Source: Caldimonas mangrovi
GTDB taxonomy: Bacteria; Pseudomonadota; Gammaproteobacteria; Burkholderiales; Burkholderiaceae_C
Direction of reading: 5' to 3'
Length of the DNA: 64,000 bases
NCBI RefSeq assembly: GCF_023721835.1
Contig: NZ_JAMKFE010000011.1
Location: forward strand, 1-64,000
Below the pieces are notes generated by a model that was not told the DNA's origin, did no database searches, and saw nothing but the letters and a program-made list of their open reading frames with translations. The translations under genes were made by a program, and so were the position numbers. Positions 35,851-47,960 of the stretch are shown piece after piece (the first letter of the stretch is position 1; each line of letters opens with the position of its first letter).

Positions 35851-36100
35851 TCAGGCGGCTGCCCGGCGCAAGTCGAGCGCGATCGGGAAATCCGGTTCGC
35901 GCGCCTCCGGTCGCACAGCCACCGCACCCGGCGTATGGCCGAGCCGGCCGCCCCTCATCGCCCATGATGTGCCAGGGTTCAAGCGCGAGCCGCAATTCGA
36001 CCTCGACACCGCGTGACGCGAAGTCGCCGAGCCGCGGAAAACGGAACTCGCGGTGCGGCGCCAACCATTCGAGCTCCACCGGGTAGCGGAAGGCGGGTCC
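35851..36100 (-). pseudogene. DUF2126 C-terminal remnant (5' part deleted)
   Basis: Minus-strand residues PVELEWLAPHREFRFPRLGD and VELRLALEPWHIMGDE match the extreme C-terminus of the large DUF2126 protein (normally about 1100 residues) that usually precedes ATP-grasp/alpha-E/transglutaminase genes. All upstream sequence is missing: homology starts near 36100. A change of frame near 35960 seems needed to continue into REPDFPIALDLRRAAA and the stop at 35851. The stop lies 37 bp before the ATP-grasp start, as expected for the original operon order. Confidence 0.62.
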
Positions 36101-36129
36101 TGTTCGGAACACCCGACGCCAGCACCCAG

Positions 36130-36530
36130 CCCTTGTACCGTCGCTGTGGCAATTTCAGATCGCCGGCCGGCTGCAACTGGCGGCTCGAAGCCGACGAGCA
36201 CGACCAGGGTGGACAGCCCCTGTGCATCTCATGCCGGCTGAATCGCACCATCCCCGACCAGTCCGTGGTCGAGAACCAGCCGCTGTGGGGGGTGCATTGA
36301 AGCCGCAACCGCCGGCCGGTCTCGCGACTGTGGCGACCGGGGGAGCCGCGGCTCCCCGCTTTCTCTCGATCGTCAATGCATGGATGGAGCTGACCGGTGT
36401 GCTGAACGAACTCTCGTGCAGCATGGGCCAGCCCGACTTCTACCCCTTCGCGCTGTCGGCGCGAGCCGTCAGCAAGCTGCACTTCGTGCACATGGTGGTG
36501 GCGCAGAAGGAAAGGGCGGCGGCGGGGTGA
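36130..36530 (+). pseudogene. Zinc-binding metallopeptidase (DUF2248-type) remnant
   Basis: Two pieces of one family lie on the plus strand in different frames. 36133-36300 encodes YRRCGNFRSPAGCNW and LCISCRLNRTIPDQS, the cysteine-rich N-terminal part. 36360-36530 encodes NAWMELTGVLNELSCSMGQP and DFYPFALSARAVSKL, the C-terminal part. The catalytic centre with its HExxH motif, which should lie between, is absent, as is the first zinc ribbon. The remnant abuts the DUF2126 remnant, and both have lost their 5' parts. Confidence 0.65.
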
Positions 36531-36583: not shown

Positions 36584-37465
36584 TCAAGCAGCGAGCGGCT
36601 GGCGAACACAGAAGGCTACGCTGGTCTGCGGCCGAGGCTCCCGGACGCAAAACGCCACTGTCTTTTTCATCTGCTGAGGCCCGCGGACACAGAACGCGGT
36701 CGACTTTTCAGCCTGCTCGGGCCTGCGCACGCAGAATGCCGCCGATTTCTGAGTCTGGACCGGCTTGCGTACACAGAACGCAGTTTTCTTCACTGCTTGG
36801 TCGGGCTTGCGTACACAAAAGGCCGCCGACTTCTCCGCTCGCACGGGCTCGCGCACGCAGAAGGCCGCACTCTCCTGCTCGGGCTCGCGCACGCAGAAGG
36901 CCGCACTCTCCTGCTCGGGCTTGCGCACGCAGAATGCAGCTGATTTCTTGGCCTGCTCAGGCTTGCGTACACAGAACGCCGCGCCGCTGGGCACAGATTG
37001 CGGCTGCCCCACGCAGAACGCAGCAGATACCTGCCTCTGCTGCGGCTCGCGCACGCAGAATGCCGCATCATCGGGCAGTTCTTCACCGAACTCAGCCAGG
37101 TACAACTCGTCCATTGCGGCGCCCGCATCGGCATGCGCCTGCTGGTCGGCCTCGTCATCTTGCAGTCCAACGTACGGATAGTGATGGACGAACTCGCCAA
37201 AGACCCGCTGGCAATCCGCGGCGTACTTGCGCGTGTCAAGAATGTGGGCATGCCAGAAGGTGTCGATGTCGCGCGTCGGCGCAATCGCCCGCTCCGGATA
37301 CTTGGCCATCAACGCCAGGAAGCGCTTGTAACCCACCTCGATGCGCTCCGCGTGCTCCCGGCTCCAGCGGTACTCGTCCTTCTCGCATGTCAGCTTGAAC
37401 TTGATGGGTTCAAGATCCAGCCCCTCGATCCCGGCCAAGATGTGGTCCAGGGTATGTTGTTGCAT
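36584..37465 (-). CDS. GRDP-like domain protein with twelve AFCVRxP cysteine repeats
   Basis: 293 residues. Residues 1-132 resemble the bacterial glycine-rich-domain-protein-like (GRDP/DUF1399-type) domain: FLALMAKYPERAIAPTRDID, then FWHAHILDTRKYAADC and HHYPYVG. Residues 133-293 consist entirely of twelve imperfect repeats of 12-15 residues with consensus [ST]-A-A-F-C-V-R-[KE]-P-x-Q-x-x-K, each holding one cysteine. Phe-Cys-Val is invariant, and Arg and Pro nearly so (one Gly replaces Arg in copy 2). No signal peptide or membrane segment is seen. The function is unknown; a multi-core modified-peptide precursor, a metal binder or a disulfide-rich tail are possibilities. No recognisable peptide-modifying enzyme is adjacent. 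Confidence 0.8.
   Translation of the reverse strand: MQQHTLDHILAGIEGLDLEPIKFKLTCEKDEYRWSREHAERIEVGYKRFLALMAKYPERAIAPTRDIDTFWHAHILDTRKYAADCQRVFGEFVHHYPYVGLQDDEADQQAHADAGAAMDELYLAEFGEELPDDAAFCVREPQQRQVSAAFCVGQPQSVPSGAAFCVRKPEQAKKSAAFCVRKPEQESAAFCVREPEQESAAFCVREPVRAEKSAAFCVRKPDQAVKKTAFCVRKPVQTQKSAAFCVRRPEQAEKSTAFCVRGPQQMKKTVAFCVREPRPQTSVAFCVRQPLAA
36587..37069 (-). repeat. Tandem repeats encoding AFCVRxP units (12 copies)
   Basis: Twelve in-frame units of 36-45 bp fill the 3' half of the gene. Two neighbouring units are identical over 36 bp (36845-36880 and 36881-36916), while others differ by point changes and by 3-9 bp length steps that keep the frame. This pattern shows expansion by slippage or unequal crossing-over with selection on the coded peptide. 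Confidence 0.9.
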
Positions 37466-37487: not shown

Positions 37488-37521
37488 ACAAAATAAAACC
37501 GGGAGACGGTGACCCTCCCGG
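37488..37521 (-). terminator. Rho-independent terminator
   Basis: On the minus strand, a perfect 7-bp stem (CCGGGAG / CTCCCGG, arms at 37499-37505 and 37515-37521, 9-base loop) is followed by TTTTATTTTG. It lies 28 bp past the stop of the CHASE-GGDEF-EAL gene at 37549 and separates it from the repeat-protein gene. Confidence 0.8.
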
Positions 37522-37548
37522 CAGCACAAGGCCCGGTGCAACGGCCCG

Positions 37549-40500
37549 TCAGGCCGCCACTGACGGGCCCATCAGGTTGCGCAAATCGACCGCCAGGAAA
37601 CGGCTGATCTCCTCGGCGGCAATCGGTTTGCTCAAGTAGTAGCCTTGGATCTCGTCGCACGCGTTCGAGCGCAGGTAGGCCAGCTGTTCAACGGTTTCCA
37701 CCCCTTCGGCCACCACTTTCATGCGCAGCCGATGCGCCAACCCGATGATGCCGGCCGTCAGCGAGGCCGCGTCCTCGTCACCCGGAAGATCCTTGATGAA
37801 GGAGCGGTCGATCTTGAGAACGCTCAACGGAAAGCGCTGCAGATAGGACAGCGACGAATAGCCCGTGCCGAAATCGTCGATGGCGAGCGACACGCCGAGT
37901 TGCCGCAGCTCCTGCAGCAGCGCGGCGGCCCGGTTCGGGTTGTGCATGACGCCGCTCTCGGTGATCTCCAGCTCGAGCAACGACGCATCGAGCTTGGCAT
38001 CGGCCAAGACCTGGGCCACCTCGCTGGCCAGTTGCGGTCTGTTCAGCTGCCGCGGTGACAGGTTGACGCTCACTTGCACCGGATGGCCTTCGTCGCGCCA
38101 GCGGCACGCGTCCCGGCACGCCACTTCGAGCGCCCAGCGGCCGAACTGCTCGATCAGGCCGATGTCCTCGGCCATGGGAATGAATTGCGCCGGCGACACC
38201 AGGCCGAGGACCGGATGGCGCCAGCGCATCAGCGCCTCGACGCCCGTGACCTGCCGGGTGCGCAGGTCGAGCTTGGGCTGGTACTGCAGGAACAGCTCGT
38301 TGCGCTCCAGCGCACGCCGGAGGTAGCTCTGCAGTTCGAGCTGCTCCTGCCCGTGCGCATTCATCTGCGCCGAATAGAAGTGATAGGTGCTGCGGCCCTT
38401 CTCCTTGGCGCGATACATTGCGGTGTCCGCGTTCATCAGCAGCGTCTCGACGTCCTGGCCGTCCTCGGGATAGACGCTGATACCGATGCTGGCAGTGGCC
38501 GACAGCTCGCGGCCGTTGACCTCGAAGGGCTCGCTGCATCGCGAGAGCAGTTTCATCACCGGCGTGACGGCATCCGCCCCTTCGTGCAGGTCTTCCAGCA
38601 CGACCACGAACTCGTCGCCGCCGAAACGCGCCACGGTGTCGGTCTCGCGCACGCATTCGTTCAGCCGCTGGGCGCAGTTCTGCAGGAGTGCATCGCCGGC
38701 GCTGTGGCCCAGGCTGTCGTTGATGAACTTGAAGCGGTCGAGGTCGAGGAACAGCACCGCCAGCCGCTGCTCGTGGCGCTCGGCCCGCTTGATCGCATGC
38801 GCCAGCCGCTCGTGCAGCAACGGCCGGTTCGCCAGACCGGTCAACGTGTCATGGCTCGCCAGGTGACGCAAGGCCTGCTCGGCCTGCTTGCGCTGCAGGT
38901 ACTGGCCCAGCTGGCTGGCGATCGACTGCATGAAGCCGACCATGTCGCGGTCGACGGCGACCGGCTGGCGACTGAAGAACTCCAGCGCCGCCACGGTTTG
39001 GCCCGCGATCACCGGCACCGTCAGCGCGGTATGAAAGCCCGCCTGCCGCGCGAGATCGTCCGGAACGTGCGCTGACACCGAGACGGGCACCGCACGCCAC
39101 AAGGTATTGCCGGACGACCATGCCGCAGACAGGTTGGTGCCAGCCGCATCGCCGCTCCACGGACGCACGGCCTGCACGAAGCCTGCCGCCGCCGCATTGC
39201 CGTCCGCAGCCCAGTTGGTGGCGCAACGCACGACCCCGTCAGCGCCGGCGGTCCAGCAGATGCCGGCGTCCCAGCCGAGCAGCTCGCCGGCACAGGCCAG
39301 CACGTGAGACATCGCAGTGTCGATCTCGATGTCCCCTCCCAGCTGGCGGGCGATGCCGTGTGCGACCTCGAGTCTCAGCGCAGCCCTCTTGCGCGAGGTT
39401 TCGTCCCGCACCGTGCCCTGCACGGTGGTCTTGCCGCCTTCGCTGACACGCTGCAGCGCGACGCTGACCCAGAGTTCAGTGCCGTTGGCGAGCATCAGCC
39501 GATGCTCCTTCTCGACCCGGATGCCGGTGCGCCCCGCACCGACGATCGCCTCACGAACCTCGCTGCGCTGCCCGTCCGGCACCAAAGCCAGCAGTTGCGT
39601 GAGCGTCGGCAGCCGATCGGTCAGCGCGAAGCCGTAGATGCGGCGGGCTTCCGGCGAACACTCCAGCATCCCGGTGTCGAGGTCGAGTACCCAGCTGCCC
39701 ACCTTCGCGAGGCTTTGCGCTTCGGCGAGCCGACGCTCGCCCGCGCGCAGGCTGTGGGTCATCACGTGCGCGATGCCGACGGCGCGTCGTTGGGACGTCA
39801 GAAGCGAGAACAGAACACCGGCCAGCAGAACACTGATGGCACCGCCCCCTAACAGGACGATCACCGGCAGCGCACGATCCAGCTGCGAAATCCACTGCGT
39901 GTCAGGAACGGAGGACTCCACGAGGAAGACCCGCCCGCCCAGCGCGAACGACTGCACTTGACTGAAATGCCCCTTGCGGGCGGGCTGTGCAGCCACAGAA
40001 GCTCTTTCCGTTGGAATCCCCCCCCTGGGATCTTTCGTGTCGAACAGGAGCTTCTCTGAAATCGTCGACGCCGCAATCCGTTCTGGAAGCGACTGATCGC
40101 TCTGGGGCCCGCCGTCATACAGCCGCAAATGCAGCCCTTCAATCTTTTCGTCCTGCAAGCCAGTGAAAACCGCCTCGATCCGCATGCCAGCGCCGACCGA
40201 TCCCAGGTAGGCCGCACGCCGCTCCTCGACGGTCTGGACCGGCTGCCCAGCCTTGTAGATTGGCAGGCGCACGGCAAGGCCCACGTAGGCGTCGGGACCT
40301 TTGACTTGAACTGCCTTTCCAGACGAGGTCAACGCGCCGCTGTCACGGGTGGCATGAAGAATTGCCAATGCGCCCGGTACGGCGCCGAGGTCTTTGCCAA
40401 GCAGCAGTTCGTTGCCTTCGAGCGGCTCAATAAATGCGAGCGGATGGTGCTCGGCTCGGCTTCCCGGCGGCGCAATCAGGAACTTCGCGCGAAGGCCCAT

Positions 40501-40974
40501 GTCCAGCGCCAGATCCTCACGCACCAGCTTCTCGAATTCCGACTTTTCTTGCCCGCTCACGTACGGCGCGAAGTTGAGCGCCTGAAAGCCCGGAAACTTT
40601 TGCTTCAACTCCAGAGCCTGCGCATAGCGACGAAAGTCTTCACGCGACACTTCCCCGGTGCTGAACAGCGCCCGCAAACCATAGAGCACCTCGACATAGC
40701 CGGTGATGCGTCGCTCGACCTCGGCGGCCGCACGGGTGGCGACTGCGTCGAAGCGCAGCTTGGCCGCGCGCTCGGTTTCCTGGCGGGCCCAATGAGCGGC
40801 CATGGCAGACAAGGCCAGGCCCACAGCCAGTGCCAGCAAAGGAAGACCGACATGCGCCCACCGCGAGCGCGGCCATGCGGTCGCCGCACGCATCAGCCGC
40901 CGGGGCACGCTCGGCCCACGTCGCAGCAAGCCGCCACCCGCGTGCGCATCTTCACCGTCACTTGCTGTCTTCAT
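37549..40974 (-). CDS. CHASE-PAS-GAF-GGDEF-EAL membrane c-di-GMP signalling protein
   Basis: About 1141 residues. A membrane helix (about 40-60), a periplasmic CHASE sensor (about 75-340) and a second helix (about 360-380) are followed by PAS (about 410-520), a GAF-like region (about 530-690), GGDEF (about 700-860) and EAL (about 875-1125). GGDEF is intact (RFGGDEFVVVL) with an RETD inhibitory site; EAL is intact (VEALMRW, EITESGV, IDDFGTGYSSL, KIDRSFI). It could make or degrade c-di-GMP; the EAL activity is usually dominant in such pairs. CHASE domains sense small external molecules. ATG 40974 follows AAGGGG. A terminator follows. Confidence 0.92.
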   Translation of the reverse strand: MKTASDGEDAHAGGGLLRRGPSVPRRLMRAATAWPRSRWAHVGLPLLALAVGLALSAMAAHWARQETERAAKLRFDAVATRAAAEVERRITGYVEVLYGLRALFSTGEVSREDFRRYAQALELKQKFPGFQALNFAPYVSGQEKSEFEKLVREDLALDMGLRAKFLIAPPGSRAEHHPLAFIEPLEGNELLLGKDLGAVPGALAILHATRDSGALTSSGKAVQVKGPDAYVGLAVRLPIYKAGQPVQTVEERRAAYLGSVGAGMRIEAVFTGLQDEKIEGLHLRLYDGGPQSDQSLPERIAASTISEKLLFDTKDPRGGIPTERASVAAQPARKGHFSQVQSFALGGRVFLVESSVPDTQWISQLDRALPVIVLLGGGAISVLLAGVLFSLLTSQRRAVGIAHVMTHSLRAGERRLAEAQSLAKVGSWVLDLDTGMLECSPEARRIYGFALTDRLPTLTQLLALVPDGQRSEVREAIVGAGRTGIRVEKEHRLMLANGTELWVSVALQRVSEGGKTTVQGTVRDETSRKRAALRLEVAHGIARQLGGDIEIDTAMSHVLACAGELLGWDAGICWTAGADGVVRCATNWAADGNAAAAGFVQAVRPWSGDAAGTNLSAAWSSGNTLWRAVPVSVSAHVPDDLARQAGFHTALTVPVIAGQTVAALEFFSRQPVAVDRDMVGFMQSIASQLGQYLQRKQAEQALRHLASHDTLTGLANRPLLHERLAHAIKRAERHEQRLAVLFLDLDRFKFINDSLGHSAGDALLQNCAQRLNECVRETDTVARFGGDEFVVVLEDLHEGADAVTPVMKLLSRCSEPFEVNGRELSATASIGISVYPEDGQDVETLLMNADTAMYRAKEKGRSTYHFYSAQMNAHGQEQLELQSYLRRALERNELFLQYQPKLDLRTRQVTGVEALMRWRHPVLGLVSPAQFIPMAEDIGLIEQFGRWALEVACRDACRWRDEGHPVQVSVNLSPRQLNRPQLASEVAQVLADAKLDASLLELEITESGVMHNPNRAAALLQELRQLGVSLAIDDFGTGYSSLSYLQRFPLSVLKIDRSFIKDLPGDEDAASLTAGIIGLAHRLRMKVVAEGVETVEQLAYLRSNACDEIQGYYLSKPIAAEEISRFLAVDLRNLMGPSVAA

Positions 40975-41351
40975 GTCACCCCTTGCTGCCCTTGCCGACG
41001 ACCTTTCCGCTGCGATCTGCCACATGCGGCGGCCGGCGGATTCGGTCCGGGCGCTCGAACATCACGGGTTTGCCCCTATGACCGACTGCCATGAAATGTA
41101 AGAACAGCGGCTTGAACGGTCTGTAAGGCGTTCTCCAACACGCTTGTGAGGCAGCCTCCGCATTCCCCGTAGGAAAGCCCGGAGCCGGCATGCTGCGAAG
41201 CCAGTTCCGGCACCGGGAACCCGGTACTAATTCACGCGACAACGGTCTGGGTTTGTCCCAGGCCTGTCGAGCGCCTCGGCAGCAAGCTGCTTCTCAACCG
41301 GGACCCGCTACGCTTGCGGTTGCAGCGCACTGCATTGGCGCCGCAGTCGAC

Positions 41352-41837
41352 ATGCGTTCAGACCCCCTGCCTCTCCTGCACGGTGCGCCAGCCAGCCGCT
41401 GGGTGCCCGGCGTGCTCGTGCTCGCCCCGGACACCACGGCGCAGCAATTCGCCGCCCGGGCCTGCCGCCATTTCGAGCCGCATGCGCACGTGCAAGCGTG
41501 CGCCCACCTCGCTGACGCTTTCCGCCGCATCGTCGCCGGCACACCTGACCTGCTGTTGCTCGACCCCGCACTGGCCGGAGAGCAACTGGCGGCGCTCTTG
41601 CAGCACGCGCGCCGCTTCCGTCCCGCGCTCACGATCGCACTGATCGGCGCAACGCCGCCTCGTGTGTCCACACCGAGGGCAGCAGAGCGCCCCGACGCAT
41701 GCCTCGAATGGGCCGAGCTGACGCCATGGCTCGCCCAGGTGCTCCCGCGCTTGCGCTGCCGTGCACAACTTGAAGCACTGCAGGTCGGCGCTTTCGGCGA
41801 CACGACAAAACCGGCCGATCTGGTGCCCGCGGCCTGA
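41352..41837 (+). CDS. Small receiver-like hypothetical protein
   Basis: 161 residues from ATG 41352; the frame is open further upstream to 41190, so the start is uncertain. The core VPGVLVLAPDTTAQQFAARA, DAFRRIVAGTPDLLLLDPAL and FRPALTIALIGATP follows the beta-alpha rhythm of a response-regulator receiver, with an Asp in LLLLDPAL where the phospho-acceptor would be. The paired acidic residues of true receivers are not evident, so it may be a pseudo-receiver. It lies between two c-di-GMP genes and ends 3 bp before the stop of the convergent gene. Confidence 0.5.
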   Translation: MRSDPLPLLHGAPASRWVPGVLVLAPDTTAQQFAARACRHFEPHAHVQACAHLADAFRRIVAGTPDLLLLDPALAGEQLAALLQHARRFRPALTIALIGATPPRVSTPRAAERPDACLEWAELTPWLAQVLPRLRCRAQLEALQVGAFGDTTKPADLVPAA

Positions 41838-41840
41838 AAC

Positions 41841-44800
41841 TCAGCCGGCCGCCGGGCCGCCGGGCACCTGGGCGTGAATCAACGCCTCGAAGTCCTGTGC
41901 CGTCATCGGCCGTCCGAGGTAGTAGCCCTGTGCCTCGTGACAGCCGTGTGCGCGCAGGAAGTCGAGCTGCTCGCTCGTCTCGACGCCCTCGGCAACGAGG
42001 CCGACCTGCAGCGTGTGCGCCATGGCGATCAGCGCAGCGGCCAACCGCGCGTCGCTGGCCGAGGACGGCACCGCACTGAGGAACACCCGGTCGATCTTGA
42101 ACTTGTCGACCGGCAGCTCCCGCAGGTAGGACATGCTGGAATAGCCGACGCCGAAGTCGTCGATCGCGATGCTGATGCCCAAAGCGCGCAGGCGCGACAG
42201 CACCTCGGCGGTGGACAGCGTGTCGCGCACGATCGCGCTCTCGGTGATCTCCAGCTCCAGCCGGGACGGTGCCAGGCCGCTCGCCTGCAGCGCGTGCGAG
42301 ATATGGTCGACGAGGTGGCCGGCCTCCAGCTGGCGCGGCGACAGGTTGACCGCGACGCGCAGCGGAACGCCCGTGCGCGTCTCCCACTCGCTGGCCTGCT
42401 CGCAGGCCTCGCGCAGCACCCAGGCTCCGATCGCGACGATCAGGCCCGTATCTTCGGCCAGGGGAATGAAATCGGCCGGCGACACCATGCCTTGCACCGG
42501 TCGGCACCAGCGCAGCAAGGCTTCCGCCCCCACCAGCCGGCCGGTGGCGACCTCGAACTGAGGCTGGTAGAACACCCGCATCTCATTGCGCTCCAGCGCC
42601 TCGTGCAGGTCGTTCTCCATGCGCAGCCGTTCGGCCGAATCGCGCGTCATGCTCTCGTCGAACATGCGCATCGAATTGCGCCCTTGTGCCTTGGCGTGGT
42701 ACATGGCCGCGTCGGCTGCGCGCATCAGCGTGACCGGGTCGTCGCCCGCCTGCGGGAAGGTGGCGACGCCGATGCTCGGCGTCACGCGCAGCTCGTAGGT
42801 GCCGACCTGCATCGGTTCGCCGAGCGCGGCAATCATCTTGCGCGCGACGAGCTCGCAGTCGTCGACATGCGCCACCTTGGGCAGCAGCACGACGAACTCG
42901 TCGCCGCCCATGCGCGCCACCGTGTCGGAAGCGCGCACCGCCGCGCGCAGCCGCTCGGCGACGATTTTCAGGATCGAGTCGCCGACGTGATGGCCGAGCG
43001 AGTCATTGATGTTCTTGAACCGGTCGAGGTCGATGAACATCAACGCCATGCAATCGTCCTCGCGTTTGGCACGCACCAGCGCGGCGCCGAGCCGCTCCTG
43101 CAGCAGCGCGCGGTTGGGCAGCGAGGTCAATGCGTCGTGGTGTGCCATGTGCCGGATGTGTTCCTCGGCGCGCTTGCGCTCGGTCACGTCGTAGGCGATC
43201 CCCATGTAGCCGACCGGCTCGCCGGCGTCGTTGACCATCGTGTTGACGACCAGCACCACCGGCACGCGCCGGCCGTCCTTGCGGATGTAGGTCCACTCAC
43301 GTTCGTCGGGCCTGCCACGGCGAGCACGCGCCACCAGTGCGTCGAAGCCCGGCAGCACGTTCTCGCCGAGCTCCGCGGTCAGTTGCGTCGCGCGCAGCGA
43401 CAGCTCCTGGCGGTCGTGGAAGATTTCCGGCGTCTGCCGGCCGACGAGTTCGTCCGGGCTGTAGCCCAGCAGCATTTCGGCGGCCGGGTTCAGAGCCTGG
43501 ATCACGCCGCGCAGATCGCTCGCAACGATGGCGAACGGTGCGCTGTCGTAGATGCTGCGACGCACCGCATCGGCACGGCGCAGCTGTCGCTGCGTTTCCT
43601 CGTACGCGAGTTCCGACGCACGGCGTTCGCTCATGTCGCGCAGCATGCCGACGAAGTGGCGCCGGCCGTCGAGCAGCACCTCGTTGACGCCCAGATCGAT
43701 CGGAAACAGGCTGCCATCGCGCCGCATGCCTGTCACCTCACGTCCGGCGCCGAACACCGTGGCTCGCCCGGTGTCCAGGTAGCGCTTCAGGTAGTCGTCG
43801 TGCTGGCGCGCGTCGGGCATCGGCATCAGCATCGAGACGTTGCGGCCGATCATCTCGTCTTCTCGGTAGCCGAACATGCGCTGCGCCGCCGCATTGACGC
43901 CGGTCATGCGGCCGGCAGTATCGATCGTGACGATGCCGTCGACGGTGCTGTCGATCACGTTGCGCAAGCGTGCCTCGCTCTCGCGTGCCTGGCGGCTCAG
44001 GCGCTGGGCCAGTTCCGCCGCGCGGCTGTAGCGGCCGGCGAACACACGCAACGCCGCCCACAATGCCAGGGTGCCGAACAAGCCGCCACCGAGCACCGCG
44101 AGCGCAGAGGGCTGCGCGTGATGCTCGAGCGGCTGCCGCGTCACCGTGAGTTCCCAGATCCGGCCGCCGGCTTGCAACGCCTGCACCCGCTGGTCCCGAG
44201 CGCGGATGTCGCTCGAAGGGATGTAGCCCTCGCGCCACAGTTCGGTAGCATCGAACAGCGGCACCTTCGCCTCCAGCCCCCCCAGGGAGGTCGCGTCGCC
44301 GGTATCCGCCAGATGCACGTGGTAGCGCCGGACATCCTGGTGAGCCAGCGCATAACGCATCAGGTCAGCCGACCGCACCACGACACTGATCTGCCCGAGA
44401 TACGCCGCCCGACGCGCCTGTGCGCTCTCGAGCGGTCGAGCCGAGCGGTAGACCGGGGCCCGGATCACGAAGGCCCGCAGCGGCGGATTGCCCTGTATGA
44501 GCGTCAGAGGCGCCGAAACCGCCGGGCGCCCACTGTCGCGCGCACGTTCCATCGCCTGCCGGCGCACCGCGCCGGCCGCAGTGTCGTGCCCGAGGGCAGC
44601 CTCGTTGCCTTGCGGTGGCTCGTTGTAGAGCACCGGCACGTAGAACTCGCGCATGCCTGCGGGATGCACGCGATAGGTGGCCAGTCCCTCGGCCTGCGTA
44701 CGGAGCTCGAAGGTGTCCTTGCCGGCGCCTGCAACGTAGGGCGCGTACTGCAACGCCTGCAACGCCGGATAGCGTTCGTCCACGCGCAGCGACAAGAAGT

Positions 44801-45128
44801 GGTCCCGGAACTCGGCGCGCGTGACCTCGGTGCTGGCATGGAACACGGCAGCGACGCCGGTGGCGAGATCGATGTACCGCTCCAGCGACTCGCCGATCTG
44901 CCTCAGCAGAGACGACACATGGCCGTCGAACATCTCCTCGTCGTGCTCGCGCAGCCCGGCCGCGCTCAAGTGCCACCCGAACAGGCTCACCACCAGTCCC
45001 AGGACGAGCATCGCATCGGCCAGCCGGCGGTACAGCTTGTGCCGCGAAGCGGGATCCGGGGCGCTCGGGTCGACGAGGCTCTTGCTCACGTGGGCGACGG
45101 TCCATGGACGAAGGTGGCCATGCCGCAT
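41841..45128 (-). CDS. CHASE-PAS-PAS-GGDEF-EAL membrane c-di-GMP signalling protein
   Basis: About 1095 residues: membrane helix (about 37-55), CHASE sensor (about 75-290), second helix (about 340-365), PAS with the block [16 protein letters not shown], a second PAS/PAC (SAPFAIVASDLRGVIQALNP), GGDEF ([11 protein letters not shown], with RASD inhibitory site) and EAL ([32 protein letters not shown]). Both catalytic domains look intact. The C-terminal half is very similar to the next protein (45165-47960), so the two genes probably arose by duplication. No ribosome-binding site decides the start; ATG 45128 is the longest choice. Confidence 0.9.
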   Translation of the reverse strand: MRHGHLRPWTVAHVSKSLVDPSAPDPASRHKLYRRLADAMLVLGLVVSLFGWHLSAAGLREHDEEMFDGHVSSLLRQIGESLERYIDLATGVAAVFHASTEVTRAEFRDHFLSLRVDERYPALQALQYAPYVAGAGKDTFELRTQAEGLATYRVHPAGMREFYVPVLYNEPPQGNEAALGHDTAAGAVRRQAMERARDSGRPAVSAPLTLIQGNPPLRAFVIRAPVYRSARPLESAQARRAAYLGQISVVVRSADLMRYALAHQDVRRYHVHLADTGDATSLGGLEAKVPLFDATELWREGYIPSSDIRARDQRVQALQAGGRIWELTVTRQPLEHHAQPSALAVLGGGLFGTLALWAALRVFAGRYSRAAELAQRLSRQARESEARLRNVIDSTVDGIVTIDTAGRMTGVNAAAQRMFGYREDEMIGRNVSMLMPMPDARQHDDYLKRYLDTGRATVFGAGREVTGMRRDGSLFPIDLGVNEVLLDGRRHFVGMLRDMSERRASELAYEETQRQLRRADAVRRSIYDSAPFAIVASDLRGVIQALNPAAEMLLGYSPDELVGRQTPEIFHDRQELSLRATQLTAELGENVLPGFDALVARARRGRPDEREWTYIRKDGRRVPVVLVVNTMVNDAGEPVGYMGIAYDVTERKRAEEHIRHMAHHDALTSLPNRALLQERLGAALVRAKREDDCMALMFIDLDRFKNINDSLGHHVGDSILKIVAERLRAAVRASDTVARMGGDEFVVLLPKVAHVDDCELVARKMIAALGEPMQVGTYELRVTPSIGVATFPQAGDDPVTLMRAADAAMYHAKAQGRNSMRMFDESMTRDSAERLRMENDLHEALERNEMRVFYQPQFEVATGRLVGAEALLRWCRPVQGMVSPADFIPLAEDTGLIVAIGAWVLREACEQASEWETRTGVPLRVAVNLSPRQLEAGHLVDHISHALQASGLAPSRLELEITESAIVRDTLSTAEVLSRLRALGISIAIDDFGVGYSSMSYLRELPVDKFKIDRVFLSAVPSSASDARLAAALIAMAHTLQVGLVAEGVETSEQLDFLRAHGCHEAQGYYLGRPMTAQDFEALIHAQVPGGPAAG

Positions 45129-45164
45129 GCTACCGGCACTGGCGGGCGGCCGGACAGCCCGCCG

Positions 45165-47960
45165 TCAATCGGCCAGCATGGCGAAGTCGGAGTCCTTGCG
45201 GGGCGCCGGCCATCGCTCGACCAGCGCCAGGAATTCGGACGCCGGCATCGGCCGCCCGAGCAGGAATCCCTGCGCTTCGTCGCAGCGCAAGGTCTTGAGC
45301 TGCTCGAGCTGGAACGGGGTTTCCACCCCCTCGGCGACGATGCCGACCTTCAGGCTGTGCGCCATTGCGATCAGCGCACGCACCAGGCGGTCGTCGCTGC
45401 CAGGCCCGTGCAACCGGGCGATGAAGGAGCGGTCGATCTTGAATTTGTCGACCGGCAGCTCCTGCAGATACGACAGGCTGGAATAGCCGACGCCGAAGTC
45501 GTCGATCGCGACGCTGACCCCCAGCGCGCGCAGACGCTGCAGTGTGAAGGCAGCTTGCTGGGTGTCGCGCACGACCGCACCCTCGGTGATCTCGATTTCG
45601 AGCAGCGTGGGCGGCAGCCCGCTGAGTGCGATCGCATCGGCCACCGCATCGACCACGCCGGCAGCTTCCAGTTGCCGCGGCGACAGATTGACCGACACCC
45701 GCACCGGCCACGACAGGTGCGGCTGCCAGGACAGCGCCTGCCTGCAGGCCTCGCCGAGGGCCCAGGTACCGATCGGCACGATCAGTCCAGTTTCCTCGGC
45801 CAGCGGGATGAACTCGGCCGGCGGAACGAGCCGTCCGGCCCGATTCCAGCGTACCAGCGCTTCGGCGCCCACCAGCCGGCCGCTGCGGCAGTCGAACTGC
45901 GGCTGGAAGTACAGCACCAGTTCACCGCGTTCGAGCGCGCGGTGCAGGTCGTTCTCCATCAGCAGGTGGGTCGCGGTGGCCAGGTCGCGCCCGGGCGTGA
46001 ACACCTTGAAGGTGTTGCGGCCGGCCTCCTTTGCGTGGTACATCGCACTGTCGGCATGGCGCATCAGATGCATGGGGTCGCTGCCCGACTCCGGGCCGGC
46101 CGCGATGCCGATGCTGGCCGTCACGCGCAGCTCGTGGGCATCGACGACCATCGGCGGCGTCATCGCCACGAGGATCTTGTGTGCCACGAGTTCGCAGTCG
46201 AGCGGACTCGCAATATGCGGCAGCAGCACCACGAACTCGTCGCCGCCCATGCGAGCCACCGTGTCGCTGTGCCGCACCGAAGCGCGCAGCCGCTGCGCCA
46301 CTTCGCACAGCACGCGGTCGCCGATGTGGTGTCCCAGCGAATCGTTGATGTTCTTGAAGCGGTCGAGGTCGATGAACAACAGCGCCATCGACTCGCCGGT
46401 CCGGCGCGCCCGCTCCATCGCGGCACCGAGCCGGTCCTCGATCAGCACCCGGTTGGGCAGCCCGGTGAGTGCATCGTGGTGGGCCATGTGGCGGATGCGC
46501 TCCTCGGCGCGGCGGCGCTCGGACACGTCGCGCACGATGCCGACGAACTGGTGCTCCTCGTCCAGCCACATCTCGTTGAAGGCCACGTCGACCGGGAACT
46601 CGCTGCCGTCGCCGCGCCGGCCCAGGGTCTCGCGGGCGGTGGCGCCGAGCGCCACGCTGAAAGAGCCCTGGATGAAGTCCCCGATCGGCCGACCGATCAT
46701 CTGCACCTCGTCCAGCCCGAACATCCGGTGCGCGGCCGTATTGGCGCTCGTGACCACACCGGCCGAATCCAGGGTGACGATGCCGTCGACCGTGCTGTCG
46801 ATCACCGTCTTCAGTCGCGACGCGTTCTCGCGCGCTTCGCGTCCGAAGCGGCGCGCGATCTGGGTCGCGCGCTCGTATCGCGCGGCAAAGCTCAACAGTG
46901 CCGCAAAGCACGCCAGCGACGCCAGCGTACCGCCGGCCAGCACCCCCAGCGGATAGGGCTGCCGCCAGAACACGACGGGCTGGCGTGCCACCTGCACGCT
47001 CCACAGCCTTCCTGCCACGACCATCGCATGCTCTCGCAGGTCCGACGGGGTGGGCCGGAACGCCCCTTCTTTCGGGGCGCTGTCGTACAGCAGCAGATTG
47101 CCCGCGTCTGCCTGCGCCTCGGCGGGTGCGATGTCCTCCACGCGCACCCGGTAGCCCCTCAAGGATTCCGGCAGCACGTCGGACATCACGTTGACTGCGC
47201 GAAACACACCCGAGATCTGCCCGACATACGCAGCCCGCCGCTGCTGGATCGTGTCGCTCGGCATGTCGGAGCGGTAGACCGGCAGGCGCAACACGATGCC
47301 GGTGTCCCCTTGCAGCAAGATCACCGGCCTGGACGCGAGCGGCTCGCCGCTGTCACGCGCTCGCTCGACCACGTCGCCGTGCAGCGGGCTGCCGAGGCTG
47401 TCGAAGCCCATCGCGACCTCGTTGCCGGCCAGCGGCTCGCAATACGCCACCGGCAAGTACTCGGGCCGATCGCCGGGCGGATGGACTCCGAAGTCCGGAT
47501 AACCCGCGGGGCGCAGGCTGCGGTCTTCGCGCATCTGCCGCTCGAAATCCGCCTTCCCGGCATGCGCGATGCGCGGCGAATACTGCACGGCCAGGACCCC
47601 GGGGTAGCGCGACTCGGCCGTCATCGCGACGAAGTGCTGGTGGAATTCGCTGCGCGAGACGTCCTGGCTTGAACGGAACAGGCTCTGGAAGCTCACCAGC
47701 AAGTCGGTGTAGCGGCTGAAACGATCGTCGATCACGACGGCGGTGCGCAACGAGAATTCGTCCAGCCGGGCATCGGCCTGCTGACGCAGTTGCTCGGTCG
47801 ACAACCGCCACAAGAACAGCGTCGCGGCCAGGCCGGCGCACAGCACGGCCCAGGCCAGCGCCTTGTAGGCGTGGCCGCGGCGAGGCAGTTGCTCCAGTGA
47901 ACCGTCCAAGTGCCACCCTTTCATTGCGCCCGCGGCCCAGCCGCCGTCCGGGCACGACAC
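45165..47960 (-). CDS. CHASE-PAS-GGDEF-EAL membrane c-di-GMP signalling protein
   Basis: About 931 residues: membrane helix (about 33-50), CHASE sensor (about 75-290), second helix (about 330-355), one PAS ([16 protein letters not shown] and following), GGDEF ([11 protein letters not shown]) and EAL ([32 protein letters not shown]). Here the residues five before GGDEF read RHSD, still an RxxD inhibitory site. It is 36 bp upstream of the gene ending at 45128 and in the same direction, so they may be co-transcribed. The start is GTG 47960 or ATG 47924; neither has a clear ribosome-binding site. Confidence 0.9.

Follow-up and report, generated by a model that had tools for sequence, protein, structure and literature searches.

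Analysing a stretch of 64,000 nucleotides from Caldimonas mangrovi (contig NZ_JAMKFE010000011.1, positions 1 to 64,000; the window), we found a gene which encodes a GRDP-like domain followed by twelve Cys-containing core units, which belongs to a family of fused multi-core proteins and which lies directly behind the gene of a CHASE-domain sensor. We read it, with a confidence close to but not quite reaching an even chance, as a RiPP-like precursor, whose GRDP domain would be a maturation or recognition factor in an organisation like that of the BURP-domain cyclases. The following features of the window are of importance here:

36584 to 37465, minus strand: fused protein of GRDP-like domain and twelve cores, 293 aa, ATG start
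36596 to 37063, minus strand: twelve AFCV-R-x-P core units (residues 135-290), a tail without confident predicted structure
37070 to 37465, minus strand: GRDP-like domain (about residues 1-132), from a Pfam match and an AlphaFold model
37244 to 37255, minus strand: W71-H72-A73-H74 motif, part of a residue set invariant in three alignments
37498 to 37522, minus strand: hairpin with T-run, resembling a terminator, in the gap from sensor to core gene; a possible attenuator
37549 to 41025, minus strand: CHASE-PAS-GAF-GGDEF-EAL sensor of 1158 aa, the upstream partner, separated from the core gene by 83 nt
40090 to 40653, minus strand: CHASE domain of this sensor, from a domain scan

Within the tail, Ala, Phe, Cys, Val and Pro are each present in 12 of 12 units and Arg in 11 of 12 (Gly in the remaining one), the units follow each other at a spacing of 12-14 residues, and all 12 Cys of the tail are located inside a core. 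Differences between the core codons are almost all synonymous: in a comparison of all twelve units, pS is 0.70 and pN 0.013 for the columns of the core (A, F, C, V, R, P), whereas five flank columns of the same units gave 0.59 and 0.46, respectively. Since Tandem Repeats Finder detected 2.5 copies only in the window DNA, and since pN is so much lower in core than in flank, the array is kept at the level of the protein; purifying selection acts on the core, and the frame at 36584-37465 of the minus strand is the one kept. A wrong frame or a chance repeat is ruled out by pS and pN together with the homologues described below, and a recent tandem array in the window by the low copy number in the DNA; some relatives do look recently expanded, for example L024 with 19 near-identical units. 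Twelve consecutive Cys units in this exact reading frame, and selection on the core itself, had been proposed in a sequence-only reading of the stretch, and both proposals are confirmed, while the Val after Cys, described there as invariant, is so in all twelve units of the window protein but gives way to Ala, Ser, Gly, Met, Ile, Phe or Thr in relatives.

The search for homologues took in the genome itself and 60 relatives, genome sets from the family (399), the phylum (398) and the order (399), and plasmid records; a protein was counted as fused when at least 2 cores were present. A GRDP-like N-terminus combined with repeats, the search suggested in the earlier reading, indeed defines a family, whose copy number and neighbours could be compared: 23 fused proteins from 22 genomes or records, the related genomes in these counts not being independent. 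All stem from the window's own order, the Burkholderiales (records with a name are from Variovorax and Cupriavidus), and one of them, G136, is counted with 2 cores only, as undetermined residues cut its sequence short. Any match at E ≤1e-3 was present in 83 of the 399 genomes of the family sample, whose 12 best E-values (8.5e-199 to 2e-43) all belong to fused proteins. Throughout the 23 fused proteins, 193 of 196 tail Cys follow an aromatic residue (W 72, Y 61, F 60) and 189 of 196 have Ala at position -2; the background, taken from other open reading frames of the same loci, is an aromatic residue before 124 of 1462 Cys. The Cys usually are 11-14 residues apart, with 12-19 of them in the tails of some proteins. 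Residues following the Cys are near-uniform inside each protein and vary from species to species; the window cores read AFCVREP or AFCVRKP, those of relatives AYCMREP (19 times), AYCFREP, AYCIREP, AWCAVEP, AFCSIEP, AWCSVEP, AWCGVEP, AFCAGPH, AFCGIVK and others. Six core strings were also looked up in the papers available to the search, and none of them occurs there.

The core also exists singly. Four paralogues, the closest ones within the genus (42-52% identity; in the own genome at C6:116357, and in G002, G003 and G006), each end in one aromatic-Cys core, the set comprising GYCY, AWCG, AFCG and AYCM; the comparison of cores covers these four, while three more distant GRDP matches of the genus (L021-L023) have 31-35% identity. 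Every one of these single-core loci holds a gene from one histidine-kinase cluster, whose member in L029 contains dCache, HAMP, HisKA, HATPase and receiver domains according to a domain scan, and a gene similar to it is also found 3' of the fused gene in G008.

Elsewhere, domain and peptide are encoded by separate genes. On a plasmid of Stanieria cyanosphaera, a tail-less GRDP of 135 aa is followed by an ORF of 43 aa containing AAFCF and AGFCF, and this in turn by a methyltransferase. In Halomonas and two Pseudomonas plasmids, a peptide of 42-44 aa with the end HCQGGG[S/G]W precedes the GRDP, which is followed by a protein of 438-442 aa (multi-TM by reading in the two that were read, with a MatE match below the cut-off in Halomonas). 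Eight Pseudomonas plasmid records contain the HCQGGG peptide, and it is these eight that have a GRDP match; G1081 contains a decayed version with the peptide end HCQGDGNW. In Halomonas (L081:2981-6700), the peptide, GRDP and multi-TM genes adjoin an acyl-homoserine-lactone synthase and a LuxR regulator. In the class sample, 16 of 369 genomes match the split-type profile, corresponding to 15 loci outside the own genome. Seven of these 15 (L157, L158, L159, L160, L163, L164, L167) encode, on the upstream side, one of a set of homologous peptides with the core C-[SN]-G-x-C; at one (L166) this core is spread over two frames, two have another tiny Cys ORF (L153, and L165, where the GRDP match contains a stop), four bear Cys in the GRDP tail itself (L154, L155, L161, L162), and one (L168) has neither Cys peptide nor Cys tail. 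The seven upstream peptides align, with F26, C46, G48 and C50 invariant (first-row numbering). As a control, the C-[SN]-G-x-C pattern, which was picked after seeing the peptides, was found 5' of 2 of 636 other genes, and for low-GC loci taken alone 5' of 2 of 78; a less strict test, requiring 2 Cys in a small ORF on the 5' side, was discarded as unspecific, being positive at 270 of 636 control genes.

The next gene in L157, L158 and L166 resembles an ABC ATPase by reading, and in Azospirillum ramasamyi a methyltransferase gene and a TauD-like gene come after a Cys-tailed GRDP. No convincing peptide gene was seen in the loci of the plasmid homologues L079 (Maritalea, with a GRDP and a multi-TM protein), L084 (with one Cys near the end, lacking a preceding aromatic residue), L085 and L086. 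The split peptides mostly are not of the aromatic-Cys type, and scans with Pfam and NCBIfam models returned no match for the small peptides P0005, P0008 and P0011. Repeat-less homologues, regarded in the earlier reading as speaking against it, therefore do exist and are many, but most of those inspected hold Cys in the tail or in an adjacent ORF, L168, L079 and L086 being exceptions; the GRDP domain is fused to or lies beside a Cys core in many, not all, loci.

The resemblance of the N-terminal part to the GRDP-like family, already noticed from the sequence, is supported by Pfam PF07173, which matches the window protein with 28.5 bits (cut-off 22.7) over profile positions 101-143 of 143 only, that is, the last third of the profile. 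AlphaFold models the domain (residues 1-133) confidently as all-helical with six helices (pLDDT 90.4, pTM 0.85), the folded part extending over about residues 1-130, and the repeat tail with low confidence. Fold searches of the PDB yielded no match below E 1.6 for the full length and none below E 2.1 for the domain alone, and a profile search of PDB sequences none below E 0.15; two viral structure models match at E ≤0.001, a Harvfovirus GRDP-like protein (1.2e-4) and an uncharacterised Gaeavirus protein (2.0e-4). D68, W71, H72, H74, D77, T78, Y81, D84, H95 and P97 are invariant in three alignments (A1, A2, A3), and judged from this conservation the W-H-A-H set possibly is a putative metal or active site. 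Split-type GRDPs of the class sample have Y, F, N or H in place of D77 and retain the W-H-x-H motif, so that in the wider set D77 is unconserved. The domain could also be a chaperone or scaffold instead of an enzyme. The papers found on the family (PF07173/DUF1399, the same domain family by profile) are mostly on plants, and in the extracts consulted none of them ties GRDP-like proteins to peptide cores; a search for such a link likewise found none. Beyond the proteins discussed so far, GRDP proteins whose tails are rich in Cys, Gly and His or in Ser, for example CGGGGCGGS, were seen in a phage record and in viral contigs (L087-L093, L095), and a separate GRDP subfamily (L045, L046, L142, L155, L161, L162) has a CPNCGRR tail with the look of a half zinc ribbon.

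With regard to the gene neighbourhood, the earlier reading overlooked the CHASE-domain sensor directly 5' of the core gene. A CHASE-domain gene is found immediately 5' and on the same strand in 17 of 22 fused loci, combined with GGDEF-EAL in 13 (the window, L024, L025, L026, L060-L065, L075-L077; the CHASE part in L026 rests on a genus-wide CHASE orthologue search) and with a HisKA_3 histidine kinase in four (L124, which has two fused genes, the second directly after the first, and L148-L150). What these genes share is the sensing part, as CHASE is retained with different output domains. In two further loci (L066, L069) the upstream gene is cut by the contig end, its visible part falling into the EAL gene cluster; the remaining three (L027, L067, L068) are without a CHASE gene; here the upstream neighbour has the opposite orientation, and the EAL cluster has no member in the locus. 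Among nine genomes of the genus, a close CHASE orthologue (E ≤3e-80) occurs in four, exactly those with an adjoining fused gene. The own genome contains 5 CHASE genes in all, and three of its five CHASE domains are clustered at window positions 37549-47960 (minus strand).

Between the window sensor and the core gene no sigma-70-like promoter was found, and the hairpin located there was rejected as a family feature, occurring in 2 of 17 loci only. No exporter was noticed directly beside the fused genes, whose neighbours were BLAST-clustered and partly annotated; an MFS-like gene lies about 2 kb off in the L124 and L149 loci, with unrelated genes between. Transglutaminase, Alpha-E and ATP-grasp genes located downstream were considered as maturation genes and discarded, as no homologue clusters with them in related loci. 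At 36013-36530 of the plus strand, the window contains decayed-looking gene fragments, whose counterpart of 392-404 aa with a Cys-rich start is intact 3' of the core gene in G003 (L026, as the next gene) and in G006 (L024, one gene further).

Since fused, split and single-core forms all exist, a precursor with a dedicated maturation or recognition factor is the simplest account, and since separate GRDP proteins are also encoded next to peptide ORFs, the GRDP domain is the candidate for this factor. A conserved leader or recognition part together with a conserved core, by which a RiPP precursor is recognised, is what the sequence of the window protein offers. Each A-aromatic-Cys-x unit would then represent one core peptide; the GRDP-like domain would recognise the cores and probably modify them at or near the Cys by means of its conserved His and Asp residues, in cis when fused and in trans when domain and peptide are encoded by separate genes; the units would subsequently be excised, to be active outside the cytoplasm, and the recurrent upstream CHASE sensor would either control production or sense the product. 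The idea of a ribosomally made, modified peptide thus gains comparative support from the multi-core relatives, single-core paralogues and split forms, whereas the GRDP domain, treated there as a leader, is itself a candidate maturation factor. Phe, however, is barred from the usual oxidative crosslinks, which counts against the maturation reading.

Several known systems show a comparable architecture. Burpitide cyclases have fused and split pathways, conserved histidines and repeated cores (PMC12186524); as in the window family, a His-bearing domain is either fused to the cores or split from the precursor, and the cores contain aromatic residues, while the window protein has no BURP domain (Pfam reports GRDP-like only), is bacterial and carries a Cys in every core. 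In borosins, an enzyme domain is fused to its own C-terminal core and acts on it (PMC7878506), a likeness in which the activity of the window protein is putative; the window protein differs by lacking a methyltransferase domain and by its many Cys cores. The multi-core microviridin precursor AMdnA (PMC5934393) also contains several cores in one bacterial polypeptide, but its product is made by a separate ATP-grasp ligase; the window has a circularly permuted ATP-grasp gene about 650 nt downstream, with no clustering homologue in related loci.

Two other explanations of the tail have to be weighed, both of which we consider doubtful. The tail could be cytosolic and buffer metals or thiols, its Cys binding Cu, Zn or another thiophile or serving as a redox buffer under regulation by the sensor; the 12-19 Cys of some tails, the conserved His of the GRDP domain and the Cys/His/Gly-rich tails of phage and other GRDP proteins would fit such a role. 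However, the Cys of the fused family usually are 11-14 residues apart and form neither CxxC nor CxC, and the window protein, with one Cys per 12-14 residues, differs from metallothionein-like proteins in the same respect. We know of no metal-site rule placing an aromatic residue before nearly every Cys. Buffering also fits poorly with the tiny separate Cys peptides, some of which lie beside transporter-like genes, and the metal-binding or crosslinking tail, offered as an alternative in the earlier reading, becomes less likely because single-core paralogues exist. Equally in doubt is an array of docking motifs, in which A-aromatic-Cys-x would bind the sensor or the GRDP domain and form a multivalent scaffold, no chemistry being involved. 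Repeats predicted to be structure-less, conserved short cores with variable linkers and the close gene pairing with a signalling protein are in line with this explanation, but the Cys is kept in the cores and docking motifs rarely need Cys, the core sequence shifts between species in step within one protein, and some peptides are encoded by small ORFs of their own next to GRDP genes.

That the cores are instead modified by an unlinked known RiPP enzyme of the MNIO type (PF05114), with the GRDP domain as leader only, is very unlikely: MNIO is encoded by all 17 fused-core genomes tested (of 19) and by none of the 4 genomes of the genus that lack the fused gene, but it is widespread in the family as a whole (192 of 309 genomes), and six MNIO genes, inspected in five genomes, have varied surroundings at a distance from the core gene. 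In the genus set (G000-G008) matches occur in 5 of 5 genomes with a fused core gene and 0 of 4 without, the one in G003 being partial only (8e-37); this is suggestive within the genus, but the co-occurrence is confounded by the family baseline, and with the varied settings in view MNIO was set aside. In the genomes whose positions were compared, no MNIO gene was found in the same cluster as the precursor; in L174, a bufferin-like small Cys protein adjoins the MNIO gene, by reading. YcaO, occurring in 7 of 17 fused-core genomes only (0 of 4 same-genus others), is therefore not required. No known RiPP enzyme was noticed next to the fused genes, and the earlier statement that no modifying enzyme is adjacent stands for known enzyme families, but not for the GRDP domain, itself a candidate maturation factor.

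In its boldest form, the precursor reading would make the GRDP-like domain the founder of a new peptide maturase class that acts on Cys cores and modifies itself when fused, with the product as an extracellular signal for the neighbouring CHASE sensor, a combination which we regard as rather improbable. A small peptide is on record as ligand of a CHASE receptor, namely SDF-2 for Dictyostelium DhkA, one of the few cases in which CHASE ligands were known as of 2007 (PMC1863423). The fused and split pairing of domain and Cys peptide suggests an unrecognised way to make small peptides. If true, the precursor reading would provide a function for a domain of plants, giant viruses, phages and bacteria, would add a RiPP-like class whose peptides are unrecognised by the Pfam and NCBIfam models scanned, and would put forward candidate peptides as ligands of orphan CHASE receptors in bacteria.
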